From an uncultured Opitutia bacterium (GTDB lineage Bacteria > Verrucomicrobiota > Verrucomicrobiia > Opitutales > Opitutaceae), in assembly GCA_903839035.1 (NCBI GenBank), contig CAIMAQ010000113.1, positions 1 to 64,000 of the forward strand: a stretch of 64,000 nucleotides of DNA, given 5' to 3'. Each line of letters starts with the position of its first letter. Position 1 is the first letter of the stretch. A program made the position numbers and the translations under genes. The notes under the pieces were generated by a model. The model did not search any database. It worked only from the letters and a program-made list of their open reading frames with translations, and was not told the DNA's origin. Shown piece after piece: positions 1 through 51,134 of the stretch.

Positions 1-2937
1 GATCGCGCCATCAAGCACACGATCAAGGGTGCGGACGCCACGTCCGCCCAGGTGACCGCGCTGCTGGCCAGCCTCGGCCAAACCGCCTCGGCCAACGGTG
101 GCGAAGGCCTCGCGTTTCTTGCGGAGGAGTCCAGCTCCCCGACCCGGGCCCGCTTGCTGGGCAAGCTGAAGACCAAGTTTCCCCGGGCCATCTGGGCGGA
201 GTTTGAGCCGGTGCAGGACGAGCCGCCCGCGGCCGCCGCCCGCGCCGCCTTCGGTCGCGACGTCAAGCCCCTCTACCATTTCGCCAAGGCCAAGCGCATC
301 GTCAGCCTCGATGCCGATTTCTTCCACGCCGAGGCCGGCAGTCTCCTGTACGCGCGCGAGTTCGCCCAGGGCCGCCGCGTGAAGTCGCGCGATGACGCGA
401 TGAACCGCCTCTACGTCGTGGAGAGTGGCCTCAGCCTCACCGGCAGCATGGCGGATCACCGCCTGCGCCTCGCCAGCAGCCATATGGCGGCCTTCGCCGC
501 GGCCCTCGCGAGCAAGGTCATGGGTTCGTCATCGCTCGATGCGCTGGCCCAGGGTCTCGATTTCAAGGATCAGGAAAAGTGGCTCACCGCCTGCGCCAAG
601 GACCTGCGGGATCATGCCGGCGAGTGCCTCGTCGTCGCCGGTGCGCACCAGTCCGCCGCGGTCCATGCGATCGTCTACGCGCTGAATTCCGCCCTCGGCA
701 ACGTCGGCAAGACGGTTGATTTCGTCGAAATCGGCGCCAGCAGTGCCTCCACGATTTCCGCCCTCGCCACCGCCATCAAGGGTGGTGCGGTCAAGACCCT
801 CATCGTCCTCGGCGGCAATCCCGCCTATAACGCGCCGGCTGATCTCGAGTGGAGCAGCCTGCAGAAGTCCGTGCCCGAGGTCATCCGTGTCGGTTATTAC
901 GCCGATGAGACCTCCGCGCTGACCGCCACGCAGATCGCGAGCACGCACTATCTCGAGTCGTGGGGCGACGCCCGCACGGTGGACGGCACAATCGTCCCGG
1001 TGCAGCCGATGATCCTGCCGCTGTTCAACGGCCTGACCGAGATCGAGATCCTCAGCCACATCCTGGGCGAGGAAAAGCCCGATGGCTACGCGCAGGTCTA
1101 CGCGACGATCACGGGCCTGAATCCCGGCGCCGATGCCGAGAAAACCTTCCGTCAGTTCCTCCACGACGGCCTGCTGGCCGATTCGGCCTATCCGAAGGTG
1201 GAAGTCCGCTACGACCTCGCCGGTGCCAGCACGCTGTTTGCGACCGCGCCGAAATTTGAGGTCCTGTCCGCCAAGAATCTCGAGGTCCGCTTTGTCACCG
1301 ACCACAAGATGGACGACGGCCGCTTCGCCAACAACGGCTGGCTGCAGGAGTGCCCGGACCCGATCACGAAGATTTCCTGGGACAACGCCATTCTCGTCAG
1401 CCCGAAGCTCGGCAAGGAGCTCGGCATCGACCCCAAGGGCGCGTCGCTGCAGGTGGCGCGCGTCGAGGAAAACGACTTTGAGATCGGCAAGGAAAACGCC
1501 CGCGTCTTCGAGGTCACCGTCGGTGGCCGCAAGATCAAGGGCCCGGTGCATATCCAGCCCGGCCTCTCGAATTACACGCTCGTCATCGCGCTCGGCTACG
1601 GCCGCACCGCGACCGGCCACGTGGGGCAGGGTGCCGGCACCAGTGCCTATCCGCTCCGTACGACGGCGGCGATGAGCTTTGCCACCGGCGCGACGCTGGT
1701 GGACACCGGCGAACGCACGCAGCTCGCCAACGTCCAGGAGCACTGGTCGATGGAAGGCCGCGATCTCGTCCGCGAAGCCAATCTCGACGAAGTCACGAAA
1801 GAGGGCGGTCCCGGCCTGGCCTACGTCAAGGGCATCGGCATGGAGTCCCACAGCCCGTCCGTCCTCGGCGAAGTCGGCACGGCCATGACCCCCGCGCAGC
1901 GCGCGGCGGAGATTCCCCGCGGTGGCTCGCTTTACTCGACCCCGAAGTTCGACGGCATCCACCAGTGGGGCATGTCGATCGACCTCAACACCTGCATCGG
2001 CTGCAACGCCTGCGTCGTCGCCTGCCAGGCCGAGAACAACATCCCGATCGTCGGCAAGGACCAGGTCCTCCGCGGCCGCGAGATGCACTGGATCCGCCTC
2101 GACCGCTACTACTCCGATGGCAACGCCGACGCCGGCGCCTTCGGTGGTCCGGGCAACCACGAGCTGCCCGAGGATCCCCAGATTTCGCTCCAGCCCATCG
2201 CCTGCCAGCACTGCGAGCTCGCCCCTTGCGAGACCGTCTGCCCCGTCAACGCCACCGTGCACGACGAGGAAGGCCTGAACACGATGGCCTACAACCGCTG
2301 CATCGGCACCCGGTATTGCGCGAACAACTGTCCGTACAAGGTCCGCCGCTTCAACTTCTTCGACTTCAACCAGCGCCAGCTCGACAGCCTCTACCTCAGC
2401 CAGTTCGGCCCGAAGGGCATGCCCGAGCTCGTGCAGATGGTGAAGAATCCCGAGGTCACGATCCGCATGCGCGGCGTGATGGAGAAGTGCACCTACTGCG
2501 TGCAACGCATCCAGAACGGGAAGATCCGGCACAAGGTGAAGGTCAACCAGGAGCACAACGGCGAGGCGGTTTCGCTCGATGACGTCCGCGTCCCGGACGG
2601 CACCATCAAGACGGCCTGCCAGCAGGTCTGTCCGGTCGAGGCCATCGTCTTCGGCAACATCCTCGATGCGGACAGCGCTGTGTCCCAGGCCAAGGCCCGC
2701 CAGCAGGACTACGCGCTGCTCGGCTACCTCAACATCCGCCCCCGCACCACCTATCTCGGCAAGCTCCGCAACCCGAACCCGTCGATGCCCGACTACGCCG
2801 CGATCTCGATTCCGTACAGCCGCAAGGAATACAACCTCAAGAACCATCCCGGTGGCCAGCACCCGGAACACGAGGAAAAGAAGGAACCCGGCCACGCCAT
2901 GATTGACGCGGTTAAGACCATGGGAGGGCTCAGCTAA
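1..2937 (+). CDS. actB: Alternative complex III subunit ActB, iron-sulfur/molybdopterin-like protein (5' partial)
   Basis: The reading frame is open from base 1, so the start lies upstream and about 978 residues are visible. The first two thirds resemble a molybdopterin oxidoreductase fold; in ActB this part holds no molybdenum cofactor (family knowledge). The C-terminal third is a ferredoxin-type domain with cysteine clusters [11 protein letters not shown] near base 1993, [14 protein letters not shown] near 2210, [12 protein letters not shown] near 2300, CTYC near 2489 and CQQVCP near 2620, enough for several Fe-S clusters. Alternative complex III oxidises menaquinol and passes electrons to cytochrome c or directly to an oxidase. 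The stop overlaps the actC start by one base. The haem subunit gene actA is expected just upstream, outside the window. Confidence 0.93.
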
Positions 2938-4358
2938 TGGCCCACGCCGAATCAGCCGCTGCGCCGGCCATTCTCGAGGAAGTGAAGCCCGCGGTGCTGC
3001 CGCGCGCCGTGCTGGTCGCCAACAACCGCAGCTTCTCGTGGATCACCGAGAAAATCTGCGGCATCATCGAGGGCAAGACCCCGGTTTGGTGGTGGTGGTG
3101 TTTCGCGGTCGCCTGCTTCGTCGCGTCGTTCACCGTCGCCGGCCTGACCTACCTCGTCGCCACGGGCGTCGGCGTCTGGGGCCATGCCAACCCGGTCAAC
3201 TGGGCGTGGGACATCGTCAACTTCGTGTTCTGGATCGGCATCGGCCACGCCGGCACCCTGATCTCGGCCATTCTCTGCCTGCTGCGCCAGAAGTGGCGTA
3301 CGTCCATCAACCGCGCCGCCGAGGCCATGACGATCTTCGCCGTCGTCTGCGCCGCCATCTTCCCGGTCTTCCACGTCGGCCGCATCTGGTACGCGTGGTT
3401 CCTGTTCCCGATCCCGAACTCCAACTACCTCTGGCAGAATTTCCGTTCGCCGCTCGAGTGGGACGTGTTCGCCGTCTCCACGTACGGCACGGTCTCCGTC
3501 CTGTTCTGGTACATCGGCCTGCTCCCCGACCTCGCGGTGCTGCGCGACCGCTTTGAGGCGGCGGGCAACAAGCTCCGCTCGTTCCTCTACGGCTTCTTCG
3601 CCATGGGCTGGCGCGGTTCCAACCGCCACTGGAGCAACTACGAGATGGCGTACCTCATCCTCGCCGGCATCTCCACGCCGCTCGTGCTCTCGGTGCACAC
3701 CATCGTGTCGTTCGACTTCGCGGTGTCGCTGCTCCCGGGCTGGCACACGACCATCTTCCCCCCGTACTTCGTCGCGGGCGCCATCTTCTCCGGCTTCGGC
3801 ATGGTGCTCACGCTCATGCTGCCGCTCCGCGCGGTCTACAAGCTCGAGGACCTGATCACGCAGTATCACATCGACTGCATGTGCAAGATCACGTTGGCGA
3901 CCGGCACGATCGTCGGTTACGCCTACGCGATGGAGTTCTTCATCGCGTGGTACAGCGCGAATCCGTACGAGGGCTTCACCTTCATCAACCGCGCCTTCGG
4001 TCCCTACGCCTGGGCCTACTGGATCATGATCAGCTGCAACGTCATCACGCCGCAGTTCTTCTGGTTCAAGAAGGTCCGCAATTGCACGTGGTTCGTCTGG
4101 ATCCTCTCGATCTTCGTCAACGTCGGCATGTGGTTCGAGCGTTTCGTGATCATCGTCACCTCGCTCGCCCGTGACTTCCTGCCCTCGAGCTGGGGTTACT
4201 ACAGCCCGTCCATCGTCGAGATCTTCACCTTCTTCGGCACCTTCGGCGTGTTCTCGGTGCTTTTCCTCCTCTTCATCCGCTTCCTGCCCATCATGCCGAT
4301 GGCGGAACTCAAGGCCGTCACGCCCCAGGCGGACGTGCACGGCGGCGACCACCCCTAA
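2937..4358 (+). CDS. actC: Alternative complex III subunit ActC, NrfD-like quinol-binding membrane protein
   Basis: A 473-residue polytopic membrane protein of the NrfD/PsrC family, with about ten hydrophobic helices beginning near residue 60. In alternative complex III this subunit receives quinol electrons at the membrane and hands them to the Fe-S clusters of ActB; it may also form half of a proton path (family knowledge). The start ATG overlaps the actB stop (TAATG), so translation is probably coupled. The order ActB, ActC, ActD, ActE, ActF matches the canonical act operon, which makes the call firm. Confidence 0.93.
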
Positions 4359-7098: not shown

Positions 7099-8517
7099 AT
7101 GACCACTGCCCCCCAAGCCGCGAATACGGCCGAAGTCACCGAGATCGACACCTCCGCGCGGTGGCCGCTGCTGTTGCTGCTGGGTTCCGCCCTGCTGTGG
7201 CTGGTGCTGAGCGGCATCCTTGCGCTCGTGAATCTCATGCAGTTGCACACCCCGGAATTCCTGGCCGGCTGCTCCGCGATGACTTACGGCCGTTCGTCCG
7301 CCATCCAGGAAACCGCGTTCATCTACGGCTGGGCCGCCAACTCCGGTCTCGCCGTCGCCCTGTGGCTGCTGGCCCGCCTCGGTGGCGCGCCGCTGCGCTC
7401 CCTGAACTGGGTCGTCGCCGGCACGCTGTTCTGGAATTTCGCCCTTGTCCTCGGCATCGCGGGCATCGCCACCGGCGACATGACCTCCAACGCCTGGCTG
7501 CACCTGCCCGGCTACGTCCTCCCGATGCTGCTGGTCGCCTACGGCACGATTGCCGTGCCCGGCGTGCTGGCCTGGATGGGTCGCCGCAAGGAAATGACCT
7601 TTGCCGCGCAATGGTACGCCGTGGCCGCGCTGTTCCTCTTCCCGTGGCTCTTTTCCATCGCCCAGATGATGCTGGTCTTCGCCCCCGAGCGCGGCGTCCT
7701 GCAGGCGCTGGTGGCCGGGTGGTTTGTGCAGGGCGCGTGGACGCTCTGGCTCGCGCCGCTGGCACTCGCCGCCGCGTATTACCTCGTGCCGAAGGTCACC
7801 GGCCGGATCATCCCCAGCTATGACTTTGCCCAGCTCAGCTTCTGGACGCTGCTCTTTGTCGGCGCCTGGACGGGCGGTCGCCACCTGATCGGTGGACCGG
7901 TGCCGGCGTGGGTCGCGACAATTGCCGTGGTGTCCTGCGCGCTGCTGCTGTTCCACTACATCGTGGTCGCGGTGAATCTCCGCGGGGCGTTTTGCGGTGG
8001 CGGCAGCACGGTGTTGAAATTTGTCGCCTTTGGCCTCGTGGCTTACGTGGTCGGCGGGTTTCTCGACGCCTACACCGCCATGCGCGGCGTGGCGGTGCAC
8101 ACCCAGTTCACCCACTTCAGCGAGGGCCAGTCCCAACTGGCGCTTAACGGCGCCTTCTCGATGCTGATGTACGGCGCCATCTACTTCCTCGCCCCGCGCA
8201 TCACCGGTCTGGCGTGGCCGTCGGTCCCGATGATTCGCGCACATTACGCCGCCGCGCTCACCGGCACGGTCATCCTGGTGGTGACGCTGATTGGCGCCGG
8301 CTGTGTGCAAGGACACGATTTGAACACCGCCACGATCCCGTTCGCGGACATCGCCGGCCACGTCCGTCCCTGGCTGCTCGCGGCCACTGCCGGGCAGGCC
8401 ATCCTGCTGCTCGGTAATCTTTTGCTCGCCACCCATCTCTTCTGGCTCGCCGCTGCCAAAGCGGCGACTCCCGCGGTCTTCAACCCGGCTCCGACGATGG
8501 AGGCGTCCGTGTCATGA
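7099..8517 (+). CDS. CcoN-like cbb3 oxidase subunit I homologue lacking haem and copper ligands
   Basis: 472 residues with about 12 transmembrane helices, the normal length and layout of CcoN. By eye the usual ligand sites align, but the residues are wrong. The low-spin haem His site is Q70 (GRSSAIQET). The first CuB His is Q211 (WFVQG). The His-His pair is R261-H262 (TGGRHLI). The GHVH haem pair is Q344-S-Q346. The active-site Tyr position is G255. The 50-residue spacing from Q211 to R261 equals the spacing of the corresponding ligands in Pseudomonas CcoN, which supports the alignment. The protein should therefore not bind the binuclear centre, and it is probably a structural partner of the neighbouring cytochromes and alternative complex III. 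The stop overlaps the next gene as ATGA. Confidence 0.85.
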   Translation: MTTAPQAANTAEVTEIDTSARWPLLLLLGSALLWLVLSGILALVNLMQLHTPEFLAGCSAMTYGRSSAIQETAFIYGWAANSGLAVALWLLARLGGAPLRSLNWVVAGTLFWNFALVLGIAGIATGDMTSNAWLHLPGYVLPMLLVAYGTIAVPGVLAWMGRRKEMTFAAQWYAVAALFLFPWLFSIAQMMLVFAPERGVLQALVAGWFVQGAWTLWLAPLALAAAYYLVPKVTGRIIPSYDFAQLSFWTLLFVGAWTGGRHLIGGPVPAWVATIAVVSCALLLFHYIVVAVNLRGAFCGGGSTVLKFVAFGLVAYVVGGFLDAYTAMRGVAVHTQFTHFSEGQSQLALNGAFSMLMYGAIYFLAPRITGLAWPSVPMIRAHYAAALTGTVILVVTLIGAGCVQGHDLNTATIPFADIAGHVRPWLLAATAGQAILLLGNLLLATHLFWLAAAKAATPAVFNPAPTMEASVS

Positions 8518-32685: not shown

Positions 32686-33192
32686 TCACTCGGCAAATAA
32701 CTGGGCGCCCTCGAGCGCGAGCAGGCGGAGCTTGGTTTTCACGCCGCCGGGGCCGGTAAAGCCGGTCATTTTTCCTTCGGCGGAGACGATGCGATGACAC
32801 GGCACGAGCAGCGGCCACGGGTTGGCGCCCAGCGCGGTGCCCACGGCCCGGCTCATGCCGGGGGCGTAGCCGAGCACGGCGGCGATCTCGCCGTAGCTGG
32901 CGGTCTGGCCGGCCTTCACGGCGAGCGTGGCGTGGTAGACCTCGCGGGGAAACTCCGGCACGCGGCTCAAATCGTAGCGCACGTCGGTGAAATCCTGCAG
33001 CTCGCCAGTCAGATGGCGCTGCACGCGCGCGATCAAGGCGGCGAGGGCGGCCGGCGGTTGGGCGGTATCGTCGGCCGATCCGGGCGCGTCGGGCAGTTCG
33101 AAGTCGGTGAGGCCGGTATCACTCCAGGAAACGGCACAGGTGCCGAGGGCCGTGGGGAACGTGGCGCGGGGCATGGAATCAAATTGCATCAT
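32686..33192 (-). CDS. ogt: Methylated-DNA-protein cysteine methyltransferase
   Basis: 168 residues with the suicide cysteine in PLLVPCHRIVSAEG and the helix-turn-helix segment TASYGEIAAVLGYAPGMSRAVG. It removes alkyl groups from O6-alkylguanine in DNA. ATGs at 33192, 33189 and 33174 are possible starts. A much longer in-frame upstream extension is antisense to dgt and is not part of the gene. The 5' end lies 33 bases from the divergent dgt start. Confidence 0.92.
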   Translation of the reverse strand: MMQFDSMPRATFPTALGTCAVSWSDTGLTDFELPDAPGSADDTAQPPAALAALIARVQRHLTGELQDFTDVRYDLSRVPEFPREVYHATLAVKAGQTASYGEIAAVLGYAPGMSRAVGTALGANPWPLLVPCHRIVSAEGKMTGFTGPGGVKTKLRLLALEGAQLFAE

Positions 33193-33225
33193 GGGCGCGT
33201 TGGCTTTCGTGTCGAAGCGATTTCC

Positions 33226-34494
33226 ATGCAGAACCGCTTTTACAACGCGTTCGACACCGAGGCCTACGGGGCGGGCCGCACGCCCGACTACCGCAGTGCG
33301 TTCCAGATCGACCGCGACCGCATCATCCATGCGCACGCCTTCCGGAAGCTGCAGTCGAAGACGCAGGTGTTCCTCTCGGGCGAGTATGATTTCTACCGCA
33401 CCCGGCTCACGCACTCGATGGAGGTCGCGCAGATCGGCCGCTCCATCTGCCACTTCCTGCGTTCGCGCGGCGGGCTGTTGCAGGAGGATTTCTTCATCGA
33501 CAGCGACCTCGTCGAGGCCGTGTGCCTGTCGCATGACCTCGGGCACCCGCCGTTCGGCCACTCGGGTGAACGTACGCTGCAGGAGCTGATGGTGAAGTGG
33601 GGCGGGTTCGAGGGCAACGCGCAGACGCTGCACCTGCTCACGGCGACGATTTACCAGAACGAGACAAGCGTCCGCGGCATGCAGCCGACGCGCGCGTTGC
33701 TCGACGGCGTGCTGAAGTACAAGAAGCTCTTCAAGGAGTTCCCGAAGCCGCCGCAAAACCATTTCCTCTACGACCCGCAGGTCGAGGTGCGGGGCTTTGT
33801 GCTCGGCGGGGCGAAGATCCCGAAGGAGCTGCACGCGGATGAGAAGTTGAATTCGTTCAAGAGCGTCGAGTGCCAGATCATGGACTGGGCGGATGACGCG
33901 GCGTACTCGCTCAACGACATCGTGGACGGCGTGAAGGCGGGCGTGCTCTCCTTCGAGAAGATCGAGGCCTGGGCGGCGAACGAGGCGATCGGGCCGCAGC
34001 AGCAGAAGCTGCTCGACGGGCTGTTCGACGCGATGCGCGGCGACCGGCTGGAGAGCGTTTTCTCGCAGAAAATCGGCGCCTTCATCAAGGCGTGCCGGCT
34101 GCGGGAACGGGAAAACTTCATGGCGGCGAAGACCAACCGCTACCGCTTTGAGCTGGTGGTGGAACCGGCGGCGGAGCGCGAGGCGCACTTTTTCAAGAAG
34201 ATGGCGAACGACATCATCTTCGAGAGCCCGCAACTGCAGCAGATCGAGCACAAGGCGCGGCGCGTGTTGTTCGACCTGTGGAATTCCTGCTGGAGCAACT
34301 ACGTCGAGAAGGGTCCGCGCGTGATCAACATCCTGCCGACCCGCGTCGGCAAGCTGATCGACGCCGAGACGACCCATGCCGGCAAGGCACGGCAGATTTG
34401 CGACTACCTGGCCGGACTGACCGACGGGATGATCGTGCGGACTTACCGTCGCTTGTTCGACCCGGAGTTCGGCTCGATCCGCGACCTGAGCTGA
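33226..34494 (+). CDS. dgt: Deoxyguanosinetriphosphate triphosphohydrolase-like protein
   Basis: 422 residues from ATG 33226 (MQNRFYNAFD). It is an HD-domain enzyme: the N-terminal FRKLQSKTQVF, TRLTHSMEVAQIGRS (first His), CLSHDLGHPPFGHSGE (HD pair) and MDWADDAAYSLNDI (metal Asp) are visible. It hydrolyses dNTPs to nucleoside and triphosphate and so controls the nucleotide pool. It converges on the HD hydrolase gene with 2 bases between the stops. Confidence 0.92.
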   Translation: MQNRFYNAFDTEAYGAGRTPDYRSAFQIDRDRIIHAHAFRKLQSKTQVFLSGEYDFYRTRLTHSMEVAQIGRSICHFLRSRGGLLQEDFFIDSDLVEAVCLSHDLGHPPFGHSGERTLQELMVKWGGFEGNAQTLHLLTATIYQNETSVRGMQPTRALLDGVLKYKKLFKEFPKPPQNHFLYDPQVEVRGFVLGGAKIPKELHADEKLNSFKSVECQIMDWADDAAYSLNDIVDGVKAGVLSFEKIEAWAANEAIGPQQQKLLDGLFDAMRGDRLESVFSQKIGAFIKACRLRERENFMAAKTNRYRFELVVEPAAEREAHFFKKMANDIIFESPQLQQIEHKARRVLFDLWNSCWSNYVEKGPRVINILPTRVGKLIDAETTHAGKARQICDYLAGLTDGMIVRTYRRLFDPEFGSIRDLS

Positions 34495-34496
34495 GG

Positions 34497-35114
34497 TCAG
34501 GCAACAGGTTTCGGCTTCAGGTGGCCGGCATCCACGGCCTCCTGCACCATGTTCTCGGCGTAGCGCCAGAGCTCCGCGCAGCCGTCGGCGATGTGTTTGT
34601 TCCGGGCGAGGACGCGGTCCTGCGTGACGCCGTGGCGGTTCCACGCGGCGCCCTCGGTACGGCAGTTGAGCAGCATCGGCTGGAAACGGTCCACGGCGGT
34701 CGCGAACTTGGCCTCGGGGGTCTGCTTTTCCTCGAACTCATCCCACAGCGCGCGGAACTCGCGGGTTTGGTCGGGGGGCAGGAGGCCGAAGATGCGGTCG
34801 GCGGCGCGGGCCTCACGCTCGTGCTGGCCGGCCATGGCGGCGGTGTCGTAGGCGAAGGTGTCACCGGCATCGATTTCCACGAGGTCGTGGAGAATGACCA
34901 TCTTGAGGACGCGCAGCACGTTCAAGTTGGGGAAGTTGGCGTGCTCGGCGAGCGTGATGACGCACAGGCAGAGCGCCCAGGAATGCTCGGCGTCGTTCTC
35001 GGCGCGTCGGCTTCGCGTGTTGATCGTCTGCCGGAAAATCTCCTTCAGCTGGTCCACCTCGAAGATGAACTCGATCTGGCGGGCGAGGCGGGCGGCGGGG
35101 GAGGAAGCATCCAT
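34497..35114 (-). CDS. HD-domain hydrolase, YfbR-like
   Basis: 205 residues from ATG 35114 (MDASSPAARL); an ATG at 35168 would add 18 residues of low family content. It has the HD pattern ENDAEHSWAL, KMVILHDLVEIDAGD and a later Asp in TAVDRFQPML. Relatives include 5'-deoxynucleotidases. Together with dgt and cdd it suggests a nucleotide-pool role, but the substrate is not shown by sequence. Confidence 0.85.
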   Translation of the reverse strand: MDASSPAARLARQIEFIFEVDQLKEIFRQTINTRSRRAENDAEHSWALCLCVITLAEHANFPNLNVLRVLKMVILHDLVEIDAGDTFAYDTAAMAGQHEREARAADRIFGLLPPDQTREFRALWDEFEEKQTPEAKFATAVDRFQPMLLNCRTEGAAWNRHGVTQDRVLARNKHIADGCAELWRYAENMVQEAVDAGHLKPKPVA

Positions 35115-42404: not shown

Positions 42405-43763
42405 ATGAATTTCCTCTCCACCCGCGGCCAGACGCCGGCGCTCGGCTTTTCCGATGCCGTGGCGACGGGGCTGGCGCCGGACGGGGGGCTGTTTTTGCCG
42501 GTCGCACTGCCTGATTTTTCGGCCGACCTGCCGCGGCTCGCGAAGCTGGGCTACGCCGATCTGTGCTTTGAGTTCATGCGGGCGTTCGCGACGGATATCC
42601 CGCTCACGACGCTCCGGGCGATCGTCGCGAAATCCTACACGACCTTCTCGGCGGCCGAGATCGCCCCCCTGAAAAAACTCGGGCCGGACCTGTATGTGCT
42701 CGAGCTGTTCCACGGTCCCACGCTCGCGTTCAAGGACTTTGCGCTGCAGCTCCTGGGCAACCTCTACGAGTACCAGTGCACGGTGCGCGGGGAGACAATC
42801 AATGTGCTGGGCGCGACCTCCGGCGACACGGGTGCGGCGGCGATCCACGGGCTGCTGGGCAAGCCCGGCACCGCGATCTTTATCCTCTATCCCGACGGCC
42901 GCGTTTCGCCGCTGCAGGAACGGCAGATGACCTGCACGGGGGCGGAGAACGTGTTCGCGCTCGCGCTGGACGGCACGTTTGACGACGCACAGGCGGCGCT
43001 GAAGGTGATTTTCTCCAACCAGGCCTTCCGCACCGGCCACCGGCTCTCGGCGGTCAACTCCATCAACCTGGCCCGGGTGCTGGCGCAGTGCGTGTACTAT
43101 CTCTATGCTTGGCTGAGGCTGCCCGAGAGCGAGCGGAGCCGCGTCGAGTTTGTCGTACCGACGGGCAATTTCGGCAACGTGCTCGCCGGCTGGCTGCTCC
43201 AGCAGATGGGTGTCCCGATCCCCGGCTTCAAGGTCGCGACCAACCAGAACGACATCCTCTACCGGTTTTTCACCACCGGAGAATATCGCGTTGGCGCCGT
43301 CGCCCCGAGCCTCGCGCCCTCGATGGACATCCAGGTCGCCTCGAACTTTGAGCGCTTGCTGTACTACCGCGTGGGCCGCGACCCGGAGCGGTTGCTCGCG
43401 CTGATGGACGAGTTCAAGGCCACGGGCCGCTGCCGGGTGGAAGGGTGGGACCGGGGCGGGTTCACGGCCTCGCGCTGCACCGACGCGGATATTCCCGGCA
43501 TCATCCGCCGCGTGCACCGCGAACTCGGCTACATCGTCGATCCGCACACGGCGTGCGGGTTCAAGGCGCTTTCGCCCGGCCGGGTGAGCGTGGTGCTGGC
43601 GACGGCGAGTCCGGCGAAATTCCCGGACACCATCCGCGCGGCGATCGGCCTCGAGCCGACGGATCCCTCGCTGGACGCACTGAAGGTCCGGCCGGTGATC
43701 AAGCACCGCCTCCGGGCCGATCCGGCGACGATTATGCGGTTCATCGCGCAGCACGCCGTCTGA
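42405..43763 (+). CDS. thrC: Threonine synthase
   Basis: 452 residues, PLP-dependent fold type II, of the long ThrC class. The N-terminus MNFLSTRGQTPALGFSDAV, the PLP Lys in HGPTLAFKDFALQLLGN, GATSGDTGAAAIHGL and the phosphate-binding PTGNFGNVLAGW are present. It converts O-phosphohomoserine to threonine. No thrB (homoserine kinase) is in the window; it must lie elsewhere. The TMTC-like array starts 10 bases later. Confidence 0.94.
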   Translation: MNFLSTRGQTPALGFSDAVATGLAPDGGLFLPVALPDFSADLPRLAKLGYADLCFEFMRAFATDIPLTTLRAIVAKSYTTFSAAEIAPLKKLGPDLYVLELFHGPTLAFKDFALQLLGNLYEYQCTVRGETINVLGATSGDTGAAAIHGLLGKPGTAIFILYPDGRVSPLQERQMTCTGAENVFALALDGTFDDAQAALKVIFSNQAFRTGHRLSAVNSINLARVLAQCVYYLYAWLRLPESERSRVEFVVPTGNFGNVLAGWLLQQMGVPIPGFKVATNQNDILYRFFTTGEYRVGAVAPSLAPSMDIQVASNFERLLYYRVGRDPERLLALMDEFKATGRCRVEGWDRGGFTASRCTDADIPGIIRRVHRELGYIVDPHTACGFKALSPGRVSVVLATASPAKFPDTIRAAIGLEPTDPSLDALKVRPVIKHRLRADPATIMRFIAQHAV

Positions 43764-43773
43764 GCCGGAGGTT

Positions 43774-45645
43774 ATGCCGAAAGTGCTCCCCGCGCCCGAG
43801 CCCGCCCCTGGCCAGGAGGGCCCTCTTTCCGCGCTGCTGTCCCGCGGGAGCGGATGGCTGCCTGTGGCGGTGATCGTGCTCACAGTGTGGGCGGCGTATG
43901 CCAACAGTTTTTCGGCCCCGTTCATATTCGATGACCTGAAGTCGGTCATTCAAAACCCGACAATCCGCCACCTGTGGCCGCTGACGGATGTGCTGGCACC
44001 GCCGAACCATGCCACCGGGGCCGGGGGACGTCCCATGGTGAACCTCAGCCTCGCCCTCAACTACGCCCTCGGTGGCCTCGATGGGCGCGGTTATCATGTG
44101 ATGAACACGCTGATCCACGCGCTGGCGGCGCTGACGCTGTTTGGCATCGTGCGGCGGACGCTGCTGCGCCCCAGGTTGCGGGTACGATTTGGGTCCGCGG
44201 CCGTGCCTCTCGCACTCGGGGTGGCGCTGCTGTGGGCGCTGCATCCGCTGCAAACGGAGTCGGTGACCTGCGTGGTCCAACGCTCGGAGTCGCTGATGGG
44301 GCTGTTTTACCTGCACACACTGGATGGCTTCATTCGCATGGTGGACGATCCGGCCCGGCGAGGATGGCAGGTCTTCACGGTAATGGTCTGCCTGCTCGGC
44401 ATGGCGACGAAGGAAGTGATGGTCTCGGCGCCCTTGCTGGTGCTGCTCTACGACCGCACGTTTGTGGCCGGGACGTTTCGTGCCGCGTGGCAGCAGCGCC
44501 GGTCGTTTTATCTTTGGCTGGCGGGCACCTGGTTGCTGCTGGCCTGGCTGAGCCTGCAGAACGGCCAGCGCGGCGGAGTCGCCGGATTCGGCCTGGGGGT
44601 GAGCGCGTGGGAGTATGCCCTGACGCAATGCCGGGCGATCATCCTCTACCTGCGCCTCGCGCTTTGGCCGAATCCGCAGGTCGTCGACTATGGCACCGGC
44701 GTCGTCCAAGCCGCGGGGGACGTCTGGCCGCAGGCGCTGCTCTTGCTCGCACTGCTGGCCGGCACCGTAGTGGCCTTGGTCCGGCGGCCGGTGCTGGGAT
44801 TCCTCGGGTTCTGGTTTTTTGCCATCCTGGCCCCCAGCTCCAGTTTCGTGCCGCTGACGTCCCAGACCATGGCCGAGCACCGGATGTACCTTTCGCTGGC
44901 GGCGGTGGTGAGCGTGGTGGTACTCGGCGGTTATCGCTGGCTGGGTGCGCGCACGCTGCCGGTATGGTTGGCCTTGGCCGCGGGTGCGGGCGCGCTCACG
45001 ATGGTGCGCAACCAGGATTATCGCGACGCGATCACGCTCTGGAGTGTGACGGTGGCGCAACAGCCCGACAATTTACGGGTGCACATGAACCTGGGCACGG
45101 CGCTGGCGGAAGCCCGCCGGCTGGAGGAAGCGCGCGGGCACTTTGCCTTCGTGGTGGCGCACGATCCGGACGATGACGCCGCCCGCTGCAACCTCGGCAA
45201 CGTGCTGCTCGAGCTGGGGAGGCCGGCGGAGGCTCTGTCCCAGTGTGAGGCGGCGGTGCGGCTCAAGCCGGATTCCGTTGATGCCCGCATCGCACTCGGC
45301 AGCACGCTGGCCCAGGTGGACCGGCTCGAGGAAGCGGTGGCTCAATTGCAGGCGGCGGTGCGGATCGATCCGGATTCGCTGCCGGGACACTACAACCTCG
45401 CCACGGCGCTCACGCAGCTGCGGCGCTGGCCGGAAGCGGCGCAACACTACGCGACGACTCTGCGGCTCCAGCCGAAATTCGTGCGCGCCCACAACGACCT
45501 CGGCGAGGCCCTGGTCCACCTGGGTCGGCTCGACGAGGCGAGGGACGAGTTCGAGACGGCGCTGCGGCAGTGGCCTAGCTATGCGCAGGCCCGGGATAAT
45601 CTGCACCGGCTGGCGGCCCGCCCGCCGCAGACCGCGGGTCATTAA
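43774..45645 (+). CDS. TMTC-like membrane glycosyltransferase with TPR repeats, copy 1
   Basis: 623 residues. The N-terminal half has about nine to ten transmembrane helices with an early acidic pair D53-D54 (FIFDDLKSVIQN), as in GT-C glycosyltransferases, and the TMTC-like segment MAEHRMYLSLAAV near residue 370. The C-terminal part has about five TPR repeats (from 430), probably periplasmic. Eukaryotic TMTC proteins O-mannosylate proteins; the bacterial acceptor is unknown. CCGGAGG lies before the ATG. It is the shortest of three tandem copies. Confidence 0.82.
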   Translation: MPKVLPAPEPAPGQEGPLSALLSRGSGWLPVAVIVLTVWAAYANSFSAPFIFDDLKSVIQNPTIRHLWPLTDVLAPPNHATGAGGRPMVNLSLALNYALGGLDGRGYHVMNTLIHALAALTLFGIVRRTLLRPRLRVRFGSAAVPLALGVALLWALHPLQTESVTCVVQRSESLMGLFYLHTLDGFIRMVDDPARRGWQVFTVMVCLLGMATKEVMVSAPLLVLLYDRTFVAGTFRAAWQQRRSFYLWLAGTWLLLAWLSLQNGQRGGVAGFGLGVSAWEYALTQCRAIILYLRLALWPNPQVVDYGTGVVQAAGDVWPQALLLLALLAGTVVALVRRPVLGFLGFWFFAILAPSSSFVPLTSQTMAEHRMYLSLAAVVSVVVLGGYRWLGARTLPVWLALAAGAGALTMVRNQDYRDAITLWSVTVAQQPDNLRVHMNLGTALAEARRLEEARGHFAFVVAHDPDDDAARCNLGNVLLELGRPAEALSQCEAAVRLKPDSVDARIALGSTLAQVDRLEEAVAQLQAAVRIDPDSLPGHYNLATALTQLRRWPEAAQHYATTLRLQPKFVRAHNDLGEALVHLGRLDEARDEFETALRQWPSYAQARDNLHRLAARPPQTAGH

Positions 45646-45695
45646 GTGTGCCTTGCCTGCCTGCGGGCGGCCGCCAACGCTGACGGCAATCATCC

Positions 45696-47864
45696 ATGGC
45701 CAAGCCGCGCGCGATTTCCGGGTCCCCGTTGACTCCGCCCAACCCCACCGGGCCAACCGCGCGCCGGGGCGTTGTCCTGGCCGGCACGGTTATCGCGCTC
45801 GCGGTCTGGGGCGTCTATGCGAACAGCTGGTCCGCGCCGTTCGTCTTCGATGATTTCATGGCGATCACGCAGAACCCGACCATCCGGCACCTCAGCCGGC
45901 TGGGCGATGTGCTGTCCTCGCCGATGTTTGCAACGGGTGCGACGGGCCGGCCGGTGGTGAGCCTCTCGCTGGCGCTCAATTACGCCCTCGGGGGCTACAA
46001 CGTCACGGGCTACCACGTGGCCAACACCCTGTTTCACACGCTGGCGGCGCTGGTGCTTTTCGGGATTGTGCGACGCACGCTGCTGCGGCCGGCGCTGCGG
46101 GAAAGATTCGGGGCCGCGGCGCTGCCGCTGGCCCTGACGGTGGCGCTGCTCTGGGCGGTGCATCCGCTGCTGACCGAGTCGGTGACGTTTGTCATCCAGC
46201 GCTCGGAGTCCCTGATGGGATTGTTTTATCTGTTGACGCTGTACGGTTTCATCCGCGCGGTGGAATCAGCGGCCCCACGGCGCTGGGAGATCTTCACCGT
46301 GAGCGTTTGTCTGCTCGGCATGGCGACGAAGGAAGTCATGGTGACGGCGCCGGTGCTGGCACTGCTTTATGACCGCATGTTCGTGGCCGGCACCTTCCGG
46401 GCAGCGTGGCAGGCGCGGTGGAAACTGTATGCGGGCTTGGCGGCGACCTGGCTGCTGCTCGCGTACCTCGTGGCCGGTTCGCACCAGCGCGGCGGGAGTT
46501 CGGGCGGCGGGGTAAGCTCGTGGGAGTATCTGCTGACCTCATGCCGCGCGCTCGTGATGTACCTGCGGCTCGCATTCTGGCCGAGCCCGCTCGTCGTGGA
46601 CTACGGCACGACGGTGGTGCGCAGCCTGGCGGACGTCTGGCTGCAGGCCGGCCTGCTGGTGCTGCTCGCCGTGGGCACGGGCATCGCGCTGCGCCGGCGG
46701 CAGGCCGCCGGCTTCCTGGGCTTTGGATTTTTTGCCATCCTGGCGCCGAGTTCGAGCGTTGTGCCGCTCATTACGCAGACGATGGCCGAGCACCGGATGT
46801 ACCTGCCGCTGGCGGCGGTGGTCGCGCTGGTTGTGCTCGGGGCGTATCGCTGGATGGGGCGTTACACGCTGCCGACGGGGCTGGCACTCGCCGTGGCCGT
46901 GGGTGCGCTTACCGTGGCGCGAAACCGGGACTATGAGAGCAACGTTAAGCTCTGGACCGTCACGGTGACGGCGCAGCCGGGGAACGCGCGGGCGCAATCG
47001 AGCCTCGGCTGCGCGCTCATGCTCACGGGCCGGAATGACGAGGCCCTGATCCATCTGGCCGAGGCGGTGCGGCTCAATCCGGGCTATGCCGAGGCGCGCT
47101 ACAACCTGGGCAATTTCCTCTTCCGCGCGTACCGGCCGGCGGAGGCGCTGGAACACCTCGAGGCGGCGGTGCGGCTGCGTCCGCCGTATTTCGAGGCGCA
47201 TTTCGTGCTCGCCGGCGTGCTGCTCCGGCTGAATCAGACCGCGGCGGCGCTGGAGCATTTCGAGACCACGCTCAAGATCCGGCCGGATTATGTGGAGGCC
47301 CGGCAGATGTACGCAGAAACCCTCGCGTCCGCGGGCCGCGTCCCCGAGGCGCGGGAGCAGTTCGAGCAGGCCGTGCGCCAGGCGCCGGGCAATCCCGGGC
47401 TGCAGGCCAGCTTCGGGAATGTGCTGGCGGCGCAGCAGCGCTGGGCGGAGGCCGTGCCGCATTATGCGGCGGTGGTGGAGCTCAAGCCGGAGTCCGCCGA
47501 GGCACAGACCGCCCTGGGCGCCGCGCTCGGCCGGCTCGGGCGGGTGGAGGAGGCGGCGGGGCATTTTGAGGCGGCGGCCCGGCTCGATCCCGAATCCATC
47601 CCGGCGCATTTCAATTTCGGCAATGCGCTCTTCGCCCTGCGGCGCTTTGCCGAGGCGGCCGAGCAGTATGGCGAAGTCGCGCGGTTGCGGCCGGACTTCG
47701 CCGAGGTGCACAATAATCTCGGCAACACGCTGATGCAGCTCGGCCGGCTCGACGAGGCGCAGGCACAGTACGAGGCGACCCTGCGGCTGAAGCCGGATTA
47801 CCTGCCGGCGCGCAACAACCTCGCCCGTCTCGAGGCGATCCGGGCCGGCCGGGCTCCGCGTTGA
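45696..47864 (+). CDS. TMTC-like membrane glycosyltransferase with TPR repeats, copy 2
   Basis: 722 residues. The architecture is as in the first copy: multi-helix GT-C domain with D52-D53 (FVFDDFMAITQN), the MAEHRMYLPLAAV segment, and about eight TPR repeats, the longest array of the three. Its N-terminal half is the most divergent copy, while its last TPR repeats closely match copy 3 (shared HFNFGNALFAL and HNNLGNTL segments). It lies 50 bases after copy 1 and 21 bases before copy 3. Confidence 0.82.
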   Translation: MAKPRAISGSPLTPPNPTGPTARRGVVLAGTVIALAVWGVYANSWSAPFVFDDFMAITQNPTIRHLSRLGDVLSSPMFATGATGRPVVSLSLALNYALGGYNVTGYHVANTLFHTLAALVLFGIVRRTLLRPALRERFGAAALPLALTVALLWAVHPLLTESVTFVIQRSESLMGLFYLLTLYGFIRAVESAAPRRWEIFTVSVCLLGMATKEVMVTAPVLALLYDRMFVAGTFRAAWQARWKLYAGLAATWLLLAYLVAGSHQRGGSSGGGVSSWEYLLTSCRALVMYLRLAFWPSPLVVDYGTTVVRSLADVWLQAGLLVLLAVGTGIALRRRQAAGFLGFGFFAILAPSSSVVPLITQTMAEHRMYLPLAAVVALVVLGAYRWMGRYTLPTGLALAVAVGALTVARNRDYESNVKLWTVTVTAQPGNARAQSSLGCALMLTGRNDEALIHLAEAVRLNPGYAEARYNLGNFLFRAYRPAEALEHLEAAVRLRPPYFEAHFVLAGVLLRLNQTAAALEHFETTLKIRPDYVEARQMYAETLASAGRVPEAREQFEQAVRQAPGNPGLQASFGNVLAAQQRWAEAVPHYAAVVELKPESAEAQTALGAALGRLGRVEEAAGHFEAAARLDPESIPAHFNFGNALFALRRFAEAAEQYGEVARLRPDFAEVHNNLGNTLMQLGRLDEAQAQYEATLRLKPDYLPARNNLARLEAIRAGRAPR

Positions 47865-47885
47865 ACCGCTGAAATTTTACCGAAC

Positions 47886-49946
47886 ATGAGCGCGACACCC
47901 AACCGGACACCTGAAGCGGGAGAACCACCCGGATTCCTCGCGCGCTGGGGCAACACCACCGCGGCGGTCGTGATCGTGCTCGCGGTGTGGGCGGCGTATG
48001 CGAACAGCTGGTCCGCGCCGTTCGTGTTCGATGACCTGAAATCGGTCGTCCAAAACGTGACGATCCGCCACCTGTGGCCGCTGACGGATGTGCTGTCGCC
48101 CCCCGGTGACGCCACCGGCGCCGTGGGCCGTCCGCTGGTGAATCTCTCGTTGGCGGTCAATTACGCCCTGGGTGGTATCAACGTCCGTGGCTATCACGTG
48201 ATGAACACGCTGATCCACGCGCTGGCGGCGCTGACGCTGTTCAGCCTCGTGCGGCGAACACTCCTCCGTCCGGTCCTGCGGGAGCGGTTCGGCGCGCAGG
48301 CGCAACCTCTGGCGTTCGTCGTGGCGCTGCTGTGGGCGCTGCATCCGCTGCAGACCGAGTCGGTGACCTGCGTGGTGCAGCGCTCGGAGTCGCTGGTGGG
48401 TTTGTTTTATTTGCTGACGCTCTACGGTTTTATCCGTGCGGCGGAGTCGTCCGCGCCGCGCCGCTGGGAAATCTTCACCGTGGTGGCCTGCCTGTTCGGC
48501 ATGGCGGCGAAGGAGCTGATGGTCTCGGCCCCGGTGCTGGTCCTGTTGTACGACCGGACCTTCGTGGCGGGCACTTTCCGGGCCGCGTGGCAGGCGCGGT
48601 GGAGGTTGTACGCGGGGCTGGCGGCGACCTGGCTGCTGCTTTCCTGGCTGGCCACGCACTCGGGGCAGCGCGCCGGCATGGCCGGATTTGGTCTGGGCAT
48701 GAGTTCGTGGGATTATGCGGTGACCCAGTGTCGCGCGATCATCCTGTATCTGCGGCTCTCGATCTGGCCGAATCCACTCGTGGTGGACTACGGGGTCGGC
48801 GTGGCGCGGCTCGGAGACGTCTGGCCGCAGGGGCTGCTGCTGCTGGCGCTGGTGACGGGGACCTTTGTCACGCTGGCACGCAAACCGGTGGTTGGGTTCA
48901 TGGCTTTCTGGTTTTTTGCGATCTTGGCGCCGAGTTCGAGCTTTGTGCCGCTCATCTCCCAGACGATGGCCGAACACCGCATGTACCTGCCGTTGGCGGC
49001 GGTGTTGGCCCTGGGGGTGCTGGGCAGCTATCGCTGGCTGGGAATGCGCGCCCTGCCGGTGGGGCTGGCGCTGGCGGTGGCGGCGGGGGTGGGGACGGTG
49101 GTGCGCAACCGGGATTACCGTGACGCGGTGACGCTCTGGGGGGTGACCGTGGTCGCGCAGCCGGACAACGTCCGCGCGCAGATGAACCTTGGCACGGCGC
49201 TGTCCGCCGCAGGCCGGTTCGAGGAGGCGGCCGGCCATTTCGCCGCGGCGGCGCGGCTCTCGCCCGGATTTGCGGAGGCACATTACAGCCTCGCGGGCGT
49301 GCTGGTTCAATTGCACCGGCCGGCGGAGGCCCAGGCGGCCGCGGAGCAGGCGGTACGGCTGAAACCGGACCAGGCCGAGGCGCATTACGTGCTCGGGACG
49401 ACCCTGCTGCAGCAGCATCAGGTGGAGGCGGCGGTGGAGCAGTACGAAACGGCGCTGCGGTTGCGGCCGGATTTTGCCGACGTGCAGCACACGCTGGCGG
49501 GGACCCTGGCGATGAACGGGCGGACGGTCGAGGCGCTGGAGCATTACGAGGCCGCGTTGCGGCTGCAGCCGGACAGCCCGCTGCTGCACGGGGAAATGGG
49601 CGGCGTGCTCGCGCGGGCCGGCCGGGTCGAGGAGGCGGCCGGGCATTTTGAGGCGGCGGTGCGGCTCGATCCCGGGTCCATCCCGGCGCACTTCAATTTT
49701 GGCAATGCGCTCTTCGCGCTGCACCGCTTTGCCGACGCGGCGGAGCAGTACGCTGAGGTCGTGCGGCTGCGGCCGGACTTCGCGGAGGCGCACAACAACC
49801 TGGGCAACACCCTGCGGCAGCTCGGCCGGCTCGACGAGGCGCAGGCGCAGTACGAGGAGACCTTGCGGCTGAAGCCCGATTATGCGCCGGCGCGCAACAA
49901 TCTCGCCCGGCTCGAGGCGATACGCGCCGCGGGTACTGCGCATTGA
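47886..49946 (+). CDS. TMTC-like membrane glycosyltransferase with TPR repeats, copy 3
   Basis: 686 residues, with a GT-C domain with D49-D50 (FVFDDLKSVVQN) and about seven TPR repeats. The membrane half is most like copy 1 (shared TIRHLWPLTDVL and YHVMNTLIHALAALTLF, the latter nearly identical at DNA level) but the C-terminal TPR half is most like copy 2. This mosaic suggests recombination between copies. The role is probably protein or surface-sugar glycosylation at the inner membrane, which is inferred only. Confidence 0.82.
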   Translation: MSATPNRTPEAGEPPGFLARWGNTTAAVVIVLAVWAAYANSWSAPFVFDDLKSVVQNVTIRHLWPLTDVLSPPGDATGAVGRPLVNLSLAVNYALGGINVRGYHVMNTLIHALAALTLFSLVRRTLLRPVLRERFGAQAQPLAFVVALLWALHPLQTESVTCVVQRSESLVGLFYLLTLYGFIRAAESSAPRRWEIFTVVACLFGMAAKELMVSAPVLVLLYDRTFVAGTFRAAWQARWRLYAGLAATWLLLSWLATHSGQRAGMAGFGLGMSSWDYAVTQCRAIILYLRLSIWPNPLVVDYGVGVARLGDVWPQGLLLLALVTGTFVTLARKPVVGFMAFWFFAILAPSSSFVPLISQTMAEHRMYLPLAAVLALGVLGSYRWLGMRALPVGLALAVAAGVGTVVRNRDYRDAVTLWGVTVVAQPDNVRAQMNLGTALSAAGRFEEAAGHFAAAARLSPGFAEAHYSLAGVLVQLHRPAEAQAAAEQAVRLKPDQAEAHYVLGTTLLQQHQVEAAVEQYETALRLRPDFADVQHTLAGTLAMNGRTVEALEHYEAALRLQPDSPLLHGEMGGVLARAGRVEEAAGHFEAAVRLDPGSIPAHFNFGNALFALHRFADAAEQYAEVVRLRPDFAEAHNNLGNTLRQLGRLDEAQAQYEETLRLKPDYAPARNNLARLEAIRAAGTAH

Positions 49947-50018: not shown

Positions 50019-51134
50019 GTGCCATTCCGCCTACCTGCCGCTCGTATCAACTGGACCAACAGTGCGTTCCTGATCGGGACCGCCGTCATCACCATTACAG
50101 CGGTTCCGCTGTATCTCTGGCGCTTCCATGTGGATGCGTTTCAGCTCGGGATGTTCGCCTTTTTCTGCATCGCCACGGGCCTGAGCATCACGCTCGGCTA
50201 CCACCGGCTGTTTGCGCACAAGGCCTTTGAGGCGCGCTGGCCCGTGCGGCTGCTCACGCTGCTGTTCGGCGCGGCCGCCTTCGAGAACGCCGCCCTGGCC
50301 TGGGTCTCCGACCACCGCCGGCATCACAAGCATGTCGACGGCAAGGATGACCCGTATGACATCACGCAGGGTTTCTGGTACGCCCACATGGGCTGGATCC
50401 TCTTCAAGCTCGATCCCGAGCCGCCGCAGGACAACGTCGCCGACCTCCGCAAGGACCCGCTGGTGCGTTTCCAGATGGATTATTATGTCCCGATTGCAGT
50501 GGTGATCGGCTTCCTGATTCCCGCCGGCCTCGGCTACTGGCATGCCGGCTGGGCGGGTGCGCTCGGCGGTTTCCTGCTCGCCGGCGTGGCCCGAGTGACC
50601 GTGGTGCAGCACATGACGTTTTTCATCAACTCCCTCTGCCACACCGTCGGCGACCGGCCGTACTCGGACCGCTGCAGCGCCCGGGACAGCTGGTTCATGG
50701 CGTTTTTCACCTTTGGTGAGGGCTATCACAACTATCACCACGAGTTTCAGCACGACTATCGCAACGGCGTGAAATGGTGGCACTGGGATCCGACGAAGTG
50801 GTCCATCTGGACCCTCGAAAAACTCCGCCTGGTCACTGGCCTGCGCCGCGTGACGGAGGAGAAAATCCTCCTCCTGCAGCTGGCCGAGGCCAGCCGCCGG
50901 TTGGACGAGCGTCTCGCCTGCCAGGTGACACCGCTGCAGGGCCGCATGCGCCTGCTGCTGCAAAATTCCGGCGCCAAGCTGCACCGCCTCGGCGATCGCT
51001 GGGTGTTGCTCAAGGCCGAGTACGCCGAGAAGAAGGATGTCCAGGTGGAACACGCCCGCGCGGCCCTGGCCGAGATCCGGCGTGAGGTCAGCCACGCGTT
51101 CGACCTGCTCGAGCTGGCCAGCGTGACGGCTTGA
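50019..51134 (+). CDS. Acyl-CoA/acyl-lipid delta-9 desaturase
   Basis: 371 residues from a GTG start (a GGGG run lies about 10 bases before it; no earlier ATG in frame). The three histidine boxes are HRLFAH, HRRHH and HNYHH, the di-iron site of membrane desaturases, and four hydrophobic helices are present. It introduces a cis double bond into fatty acids to adjust membrane fluidity. The C-terminal 90 residues after the last box are a charged helical extension not present in minimal desaturases. Confidence 0.9.
   Translation: MPFRLPAARINWTNSAFLIGTAVITITAVPLYLWRFHVDAFQLGMFAFFCIATGLSITLGYHRLFAHKAFEARWPVRLLTLLFGAAAFENAALAWVSDHRRHHKHVDGKDDPYDITQGFWYAHMGWILFKLDPEPPQDNVADLRKDPLVRFQMDYYVPIAVVIGFLIPAGLGYWHAGWAGALGGFLLAGVARVTVVQHMTFFINSLCHTVGDRPYSDRCSARDSWFMAFFTFGEGYHNYHHEFQHDYRNGVKWWHWDPTKWSIWTLEKLRLVTGLRRVTEEKILLLQLAEASRRLDERLACQVTPLQGRMRLLLQNSGAKLHRLGDRWVLLKAEYAEKKDVQVEHARAALAEIRREVSHAFDLLELASVTA

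Follow-up and report, generated by a model that had tools for sequence, protein, structure and literature searches.

A 64,000-nucleotide stretch of DNA from an uncultured Opitutia bacterium (contig CAIMAQ010000113.1; hereafter the window) carries a tandem array of three genes, copies 1, 2 and 3 (T1–T3; Table 1), each encoding a GT-C membrane domain followed by tetratricopeptide repeats (TPRs). The three proteins are probably TMTC-like protein glycosyltransferases that act in the periplasm, use a lipid-linked sugar and engage their acceptors with their TPR arms. In the mechanism proposed here, each inner-membrane GT-C enzyme would use a polyprenyl-phosphate-linked donor, from which its membrane domain would move a single sugar, at the periplasmic face, onto a hydroxyl group carried by an exported protein. 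The Asp-Asp pair would work on the acceptor side, while the donor phosphate and a metal would be held by Lys-Glu, an Asp and, in the last loop, Glu/Arg; the C-terminal TPR superhelix would extend into the periplasm and bind the acceptor. The copies would have multiplied at one locus, their TPR arms diverging and being exchanged, so that their exported or outer-membrane acceptors would probably differ. The computed results are the fold, the conservation of motifs, the charge pattern, the history of the locus and the discordance between TPR and catalytic parts; sugar, donor, catalysis, acceptors and the role of the TPRs we infer.

The three genes lie on one strand in close succession, with T1 starting 10 bp after thrC and the copies separated by 50 bp (T1–T2) and 21 bp (T2–T3). 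In each protein, a hydrophobic N-terminal part some 410 residues long precedes the TPR array, and the best Pfam TPR model matched the TPR halves at E-values of 1.2e-30 (T1), 2e-44 (T2) and 6.6e-44 (T3). The GT-C halves of T1–T3 gave no Pfam match of their own at E 0.1; across the family, 17 of 69 GT-C domains matched PMT_2 (best 1.2e-8). Together with models of copy 3, the open reading frames (ORFs), TPR profile matches and family PMT_2 matches confirmed the original prediction of three GT-C/TPR genes in tandem at 43774–49946. The TPR numbers it gave, about 5, 8 and 7, also stood: the AlphaFold model of copy 3 contains seven helix pairs and a cap, and about 5 and about 8 were estimated for copies 1 and 2 from the sequence length after the membrane part. 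T1–T3 are not chance ORFs, since matches are widespread and each catalytic residue is conserved in 105–113 of 113 domains. A match was found in 35 of 38 genomes searched, the window's own genome counted, although some matches cover the TPRs only. Among named records the nearest, both metagenome-assembled genomes, encode proteins 94% ('Verrucomicrobia bacterium isolate Opi-474') and 93% ('uncultured Opitutae bacterium') identical to copy 3. The suggestion that the system is expanded was borne out by the window genome (3.39 Mb, 126 contigs), which holds four close TMTC-like copies and two remote ones. The remote GT-C/TPR proteins (G000:C42:18825-20405 and G000:C43:5182-7008) are 33% and 29% identical to copy 3 and form separate lineages.

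Copy 3 was modelled with AlphaFold2 at full length, using an alignment of 75 sequences (predicted local distance difference test, pLDDT, 94.2; predicted template modelling score, pTM, 0.89), and as the GT-C part alone, using 69 sequences (pLDDT 92.0). Comparison of the GT-C part with 1000 chains by VIA-align gave Z ≥ 8 for 57 of them. ArnT (5ezm) ranked first, with Z 19.8 over 316 residues at 4.2 Å, followed by Pmt4 (9i5l_A, Z 19.6), AglB (3waj, Z 19.2), yeast STT3 (6ezn, Z 19.2) and Pmt1–Pmt2 (6p25_B, Z 19.1). These top alignments span the first to the last residue of the model, and the 50 structure entries listed are GT-C enzymes, complexes containing an oligosaccharyltransferase (OST), or glycosylphosphatidylinositol (GPI) transamidase. 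Foldseek found no match to the GT-C part at E 0.001, its first 18 rows being GT-C enzymes or an OST-containing complex; with the full copy 3 model it returned TPR proteins in the 50 matches listed, judging from their titles. In searches of solved structures, the GT-C sequence of copy 3 yielded a single chance match (E 0.78) and its profile none. The full-length profile matched 516 sequences of solved structures, and the 60 listed match the TPR half only. By the membrane fold modelled for copy 3, T1–T3 belong to the GT-C glycosyltransferase superfamily. The original prediction, which depended on this fold and proposed a comparison with TMTC and PMT structures, is thus supported by copy 3 models that match ArnT, Pmt and STT3/AglB at Z 19–20.

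Catalytic positions were compared over a non-redundant set of 113 domains, T1–T3 among them, that remained from 151 distinct matches (at least 500 aa, complete domain, less than 90% identity). In copy 3 numbering, D49, R82, P83, R166, E168, K209, E210, E363 and R365 are invariant in all 113; Tyr302 is kept in 112 and Tyr367 in 111. The conserved positions correspond to TMTC motifs M1, M2 (R-P), M3, M4, M5 and M7, and all three window copies retain the motifs looked for. Roles of these motifs in human TMTCs, in catalysis and in binding of the donor phosphate and metal, are assigned by Eisenhaber and colleagues (Table 4 of PMC7801869). The acidic residue of M5 is kept as Asp (105 domains) or Glu (8), and its Trp is replaced by Tyr in 112 of 113. 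A count of charges, with helix ends taken from the copy 3 model and 11 helices assumed, gave 15–17 lysines and arginines in 81–85 residues for loops assigned to the inside and 11–13 in 201–203 residues for those outside, in all three copies. This pattern places the Asp-Asp pair and the TPRs outside, and the Asp pair should therefore face the periplasm, in agreement with the periplasmic acidic pair on which the original prediction also relied; it is predicted to lie in the first outer loop.

Several observations weigh against reading the triplet as periplasmic TMTC-like protein glycosyltransferases. The last two membrane helices are fused in both AlphaFold models, so that confidence in the side on which the TPRs lie is lower than for the rest: nine helices are clear in copy 3, and the final 43-residue segment (369–411) is drawn as one helix. 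A single long final helix, if real, would put the TPRs on the opposite side. In sequence, this segment has two hydrophobic stretches separated by arginines, and the Pmt and ArnT alignments run through the whole of it; we therefore favour 11 helices and periplasmic TPRs. PF08409 (TMTC_DUF1736), the loop profile that marks TMTCs, had no match in the window genome at E ≤ 1 and, of the 69 family domains, matched just 5 (best 0.0069). Motif M3 is RxE in 113 of 113 domains rather than the RxD of TMTCs, and M7 is E-H-R-x-Y rather than E-R-x-x-Y, with the spacing of Glu and Tyr retained and Arg one residue later. The fold itself leaves the acceptor unsettled: ArnT shares it, yet its acceptor is lipid A and not protein. 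The window genome encodes one GtrA-type protein, which proves no donor, and no obvious mannosyl-donor operon surrounds its gene in a 3.3-kb locus. Nothing in the analysis points to mannose as the sugar. Among the 24 other window ORFs scanned, none points to glycosylation.

Because PF08409 is absent and some of the seven published motifs differ, 'TMTC-like' is a safer term for T1–T3 than 'TMTC'; judged by sequence, they are not strict TMTC members. The TMTC label of the original prediction thus stood for the GT-C/TPR plan and for motifs M1 (DD) and M4 (KE), but not for PF08409, M3 (RxD) or M7 (ERxxY). Prokaryotic TMTC homologues have already been mentioned in print (PMC7801869); in the literature searched we found no account of what they do, and no papers combining TMTC, TonB and tetratricopeptide. 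TMTC1–4 (CAZy GT105), the O-mannosyltransferases of cadherins in the animal endoplasmic reticulum, share with the triplet a GT-C domain followed by TPRs (in the triplet, predicted to face the secretory side), a first outer loop that bears DD, the K-E, D and E..Y positions, and ArnT as the best structural template, as reported for the human proteins (PMC7801869). Besides the missing PF08409 and the changes in M3 and M7, the triplet differs from them in having DY (or EY in relatives) for DW, and in being bacterial with several tandem copies. PMT/POMT enzymes (GT39; Pmt1/2/4) have the GT-C fold over the whole domain (Z 18.9–19.6) and an outer acidic pair, but are only 10–12% identical to the triplet, which has TPRs and in which no MIR domain was seen. 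The OST catalytic subunits STT3, AglB and PglB (GT66) resemble it in the GT-C fold (Z up to 19.2) and in an outer acceptor site and a C-terminal outer domain, as predicted for the triplet; they transfer an oligosaccharide to Asn, however, their C-terminal domain is of another kind, and identity is 8–13%. ArnT (GT83), the aminoarabinose transferase, is like the triplet in fold and in being bacterial, with an undecaprenyl-phosphate-linked donor as its own feature, but lacks TPRs. Its membrane helices number 13 (PMC7801869), compared with about 11 in the triplet.

A new element is that, in the family, TMTC-like genes often stand directly beside an Oar-type outer-membrane gene. Across 79 loci of the best relatives, clustering of the neighbours brought out two recurrent groups: outer-membrane proteins that combine an OMP_b-brl_4 barrel with a CarboxypepD_reg extension, and TonB-dependent proteins that have a Plug domain. 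An outer-membrane gene of one or the other group is carried by 27 of the 79 loci, in 23 of these at most 600 bp from a TMTC-like gene. The neighbour family was chosen because it recurs; this count is therefore the discovery, and a count from the PF25183 side served as the test. PF25183 is present in 48 of 80 family genomes, and the test covered 61 stretches with 64 PF25183 genes, a stretch from the window's own genome included. For 15 of the 64 genes a TMTC-like gene stands within 600 bp (0.09 expected), and for 18 within 5 kb (0.79 expected), the expected counts being computed from copy number and genome size. Discovery loci and test stretches overlap in at least three cases (L056/L178, L066/L148 and L057/L150), several of the 61 stretches stop at contig ends, so that some neighbours may be missed, and weak or partial PF25183 matches (G319:C507, G351:C122 and G330:C106) were left out.

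This linkage admits another explanation, possible though doubtful for the triplet: that the TMTC-like family of Opitutaceae chiefly matures CarboxypepD_reg TonB-dependent outer-membrane proteins, by glycosylation or escort in the periplasm, and that the triplet, as paralogues, serves them from a distance. The proximity of the genes in both counts speaks for it. So does gene order, since the outer-membrane gene comes first in all 7 same-strand pairs among the 18 (5 are convergent and 6 divergent), and so does co-occurrence over the 80 genomes: 41 have both genes, 7 the outer-membrane gene only, 13 the TMTC-like gene only and 19 neither (Fisher 5.9e-5). The genomes are related, however, so that the p-values of the linkage and co-occurrence statistics are too small, and the exosortase control, in which 0 of 20 stretches around exosortase genes, taken from genomes with TMTC-like genes, had either gene, is small, with few expected anyway. 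A tree of 156 TMTC-like domains, 38 of them linked to either outer-membrane group within 1 kb (more than in a random sample, as discovery and test sets are mixed), required 15 changes in linkage, 7 of them forced by supported branches, compared with 34.2 for shuffled labels. The pairing is therefore clustered, yet was gained or lost several times, and kinship does not explain away a pairing with several orientations and several origins. Opposing the explanation, the fetched flanks of 46 of the 64 PF25183 genes lack a TMTC-like gene, and 8 of the 64 are in genomes without one at E 1e-25. The single PF25183 gene of the window genome (C6, 3' end L129:7350; its upstream part reads N) is convergent with the fourth TMTC-like gene (L129:7485-9734), at a distance of 135 bp. 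The triplet has no such neighbour: tblastn with one protein per outer-membrane group found no match in the 64-kb window. The Oar-type pairing is thus evidence about the family and extends to the triplet by analogy only.

Pfam scans of neighbour proteins covered 6, 8 and 5 proteins. All seven complete OMP_b-brl_4 proteins scanned (L053, L061, L066, L074, L092, L135 and L150) have an N-terminal CarboxypepD_reg extension (PF13620), a beta-sandwich; the protein of L198 is partial and stands outside this count. A Plug domain was seen in one of the seven (L053), at 1.6e-4, weaker than its cut-off. Transporters of the Oar subclass are distinguished by a CarboxypepD_reg extension (PMC6434023), and the relatives' neighbour resembles Oar, a TonB-dependent transporter of Myxococcus xanthus, in combining N-terminal CarboxypepD_reg with an outer-membrane barrel. 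Oar itself is needed for PopC secretion (PMC6434023), and the word stem 'glycosyl' is absent from that paper. Human TMTCs modify Ser/Thr in beta-strands of immunoglobulin (Ig)-like domains (PMC11292533); by analogy, the beta-sandwich extension of the neighbour is thus a plausible acceptor of the TMTC-like enzyme. Ser/Thr occupancy was compared over 1036 columns between 25 linked and 45 unlinked outer-membrane proteins. The best column reached p 2.8e-7 (14 of 25 linked against 1 of 45 unlinked), but linked proteins are 45% identical among themselves and 38% to unlinked ones, and no column in this comparison separates the two sets beyond what kinship may explain, a further point against maturation of Oar-type proteins as the family's chief task.

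It is unlikely that the sugar goes instead onto lipid A, O-antigen or another surface glycan, in the manner of ArnT or of mycobacterial arabinosyltransferases, with the TPRs merely tethering partners. ArnT is the first fold match, tied with Pmt4, and the arabinosyltransferases AftD, AftB, AftA and EmbB are also among the matches, at lower ranks. On the other hand, neither the 24 other window ORFs nor the six recurrent neighbour families scanned include a lipid A, O-antigen or capsule gene, and a long TPR superhelix is the architecture of proteins that bind other proteins, OGT among them. For TMEM260, a TMTC-related protein, substrate recruitment by the TPRs has been proposed by the authors of PMC11292533.

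Gene order in the genus is plsY-hom-lysC-thrC-[TMTC-like]-desaturase-cls-radC, where hom is presumably the gene before lysC, named from its sequence; the G002 stretch fetched ends at lysC. The window genome and five genus relatives all retain the segment thrC-(1, 2 or 3 copies)-desaturase-cls-radC: the window genome, G002 and G009 have three copies, G011 has two, and G008 and G004 have one each. T1–T3 fall within one 12-row clade (SH-aLRT support 99), and the first thrC-locus copy of G009 falls in another; members at this locus were therefore also replaced. TMTC-like matches per genome range from 0 to 21 across the 80 family genomes, and high counts may be low, as at most 23 candidates were scored per genome. 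Tandem duplication without separate acceptors, with copy number drifting, would suit this variation at the locus and in the family but is improbable, since the GT-C parts of T1–T3 are 92% identical to their G002 counterparts, differ from each other by 27–32% and keep their motifs, so that all three copies are old and maintained.

Catalytic and TPR parts of copy 3 disagree in ancestry. Over the first 415 residues, identity of copy 3 is higher to copy 1 (73%) than to copy 2 (70%), whereas over the last 140 residues the order is reversed, at 51% to copy 1 and 78% to copy 2. The corresponding values in G002 are 76% (copy 1) and 70% (copy 2) for the first 415 residues, and 50% and 73% for the last 140. 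For this reason, the C-terminal TPRs of copy 3 probably came from copy 2 by recombination. This discordance and the outer-membrane neighbour of relatives, the latter not at the triplet, are indirect evidence that there may be several acceptors and that TPR number may fit acceptor recognition, as the original prediction had suggested.

Other features of the loci were noted. In five of nine Myxococcales loci (L055, L060, L069, L116 and L124), a gene of a sensor-kinase cluster overlaps the TMTC-like gene or lies within 76 bp upstream of it; that of L069 encodes a hybrid kinase with a sensor domain like a sugar-binding protein, and the TMTC-like enzyme of Myxococcota may be under sugar-sensing control. 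Genes for the small and large chains of ribonucleotide reductase occur in 9 and 8 of the 79 TMTC-like loci, respectively, the small-chain gene lying 300–700 bp away in five of the nine (L066, L074, L083, L085 and L092); this neighbourhood is probably inherited synteny. An exosortase/PEP-CTERM link was considered and rejected, as its co-occurrence is uninformative: exosortase is found in 219 of 288 phylum genomes and in all 26 genomes of the window's family in that sample, 18 of which have TMTC-like matches, in a survey of presence only that scored at most 6 candidates per genome in nearly all genomes. Elsewhere in the window, positions 52–4358 hold a frame with an iron-sulfur subunit domain beside a weakly DsrP-like membrane subunit, respiratory-complex-like but weaker than the curated cut-offs, and 7099–8514 encodes a cbb3-like oxidase subunit, again with a match weaker than its cut-off. 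A 651-aa frame at 32686–34641 on the minus strand has a methylated-DNA-cysteine methyltransferase domain only at residues 563–644, and may reflect a misplaced start or a fusion.

Table 1. Coordinates in the window of the three TMTC-like genes, their catalytic motifs and the genes flanking them
Feature	Position	Strand	Remarks
Copy 1 (T1), 623 aa	43774..45645	+	GT-C membrane domain to about residue 413, then about 5 TPRs
Copy 2 (T2), 722 aa	45696..47864	+	GT-C domain, then about 8 TPRs
Copy 3 (T3), 686 aa	47886..49946	+	GT-C domain at about residues 16–411; 7 TPRs and cap at 429–684
TPR array of copy 3	49170..49937	+	From AlphaFold model and identity comparison
Asp53-Asp54 of copy 1	43930..43935	+	Motif M1, first periplasmic loop (predicted)
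Asp52-Asp53 of copy 2	45849..45854	+	Motif M1
Asp49-Asp50 of copy 3	48030..48035	+	Motif M1; D49 in 113/113, D50 in 112/113
Lys209-Glu210 of copy 3	48510..48515	+	Motif M4; 113/113; donor phosphate and metal in TMTC models
Asp301-Tyr302 of copy 3	48786..48791	+	Motif M5, where TMTCs have DW; 105 D and 8 E among 113
Glu363-His-Arg365-Met-Tyr367 of copy 3	48972..48986	+	Motif M7; E-H-R-x-Y instead of E-R-x-x-Y
thrC	42405..43763	+	Upstream edge of conserved locus; outside the glycosyltransferase system
Fatty acid desaturase	50019..51134	+	Downstream edge of conserved locus; outside the glycosyltransferase system

The Oar-type linkage is the best handle for testing function. A recurrent, rare gene neighbour is a concrete candidate acceptor, in bacteria where enzyme and substrate can be co-expressed. 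More speculatively, and with considerable doubt, Opitutaceae might run a prokaryotic counterpart of the TMTC–cadherin system, in which many-copy periplasmic GT-C/TPR enzymes are paired with beta-rich outer-membrane domains, the Oar-type CarboxypepD_reg being the most visible, and TPR arms are swapped to change the acceptor. Free recombination between TPR arms and catalytic parts, if it occurs, would make the family a natural experiment on acceptor choice by TMTC-type enzymes.

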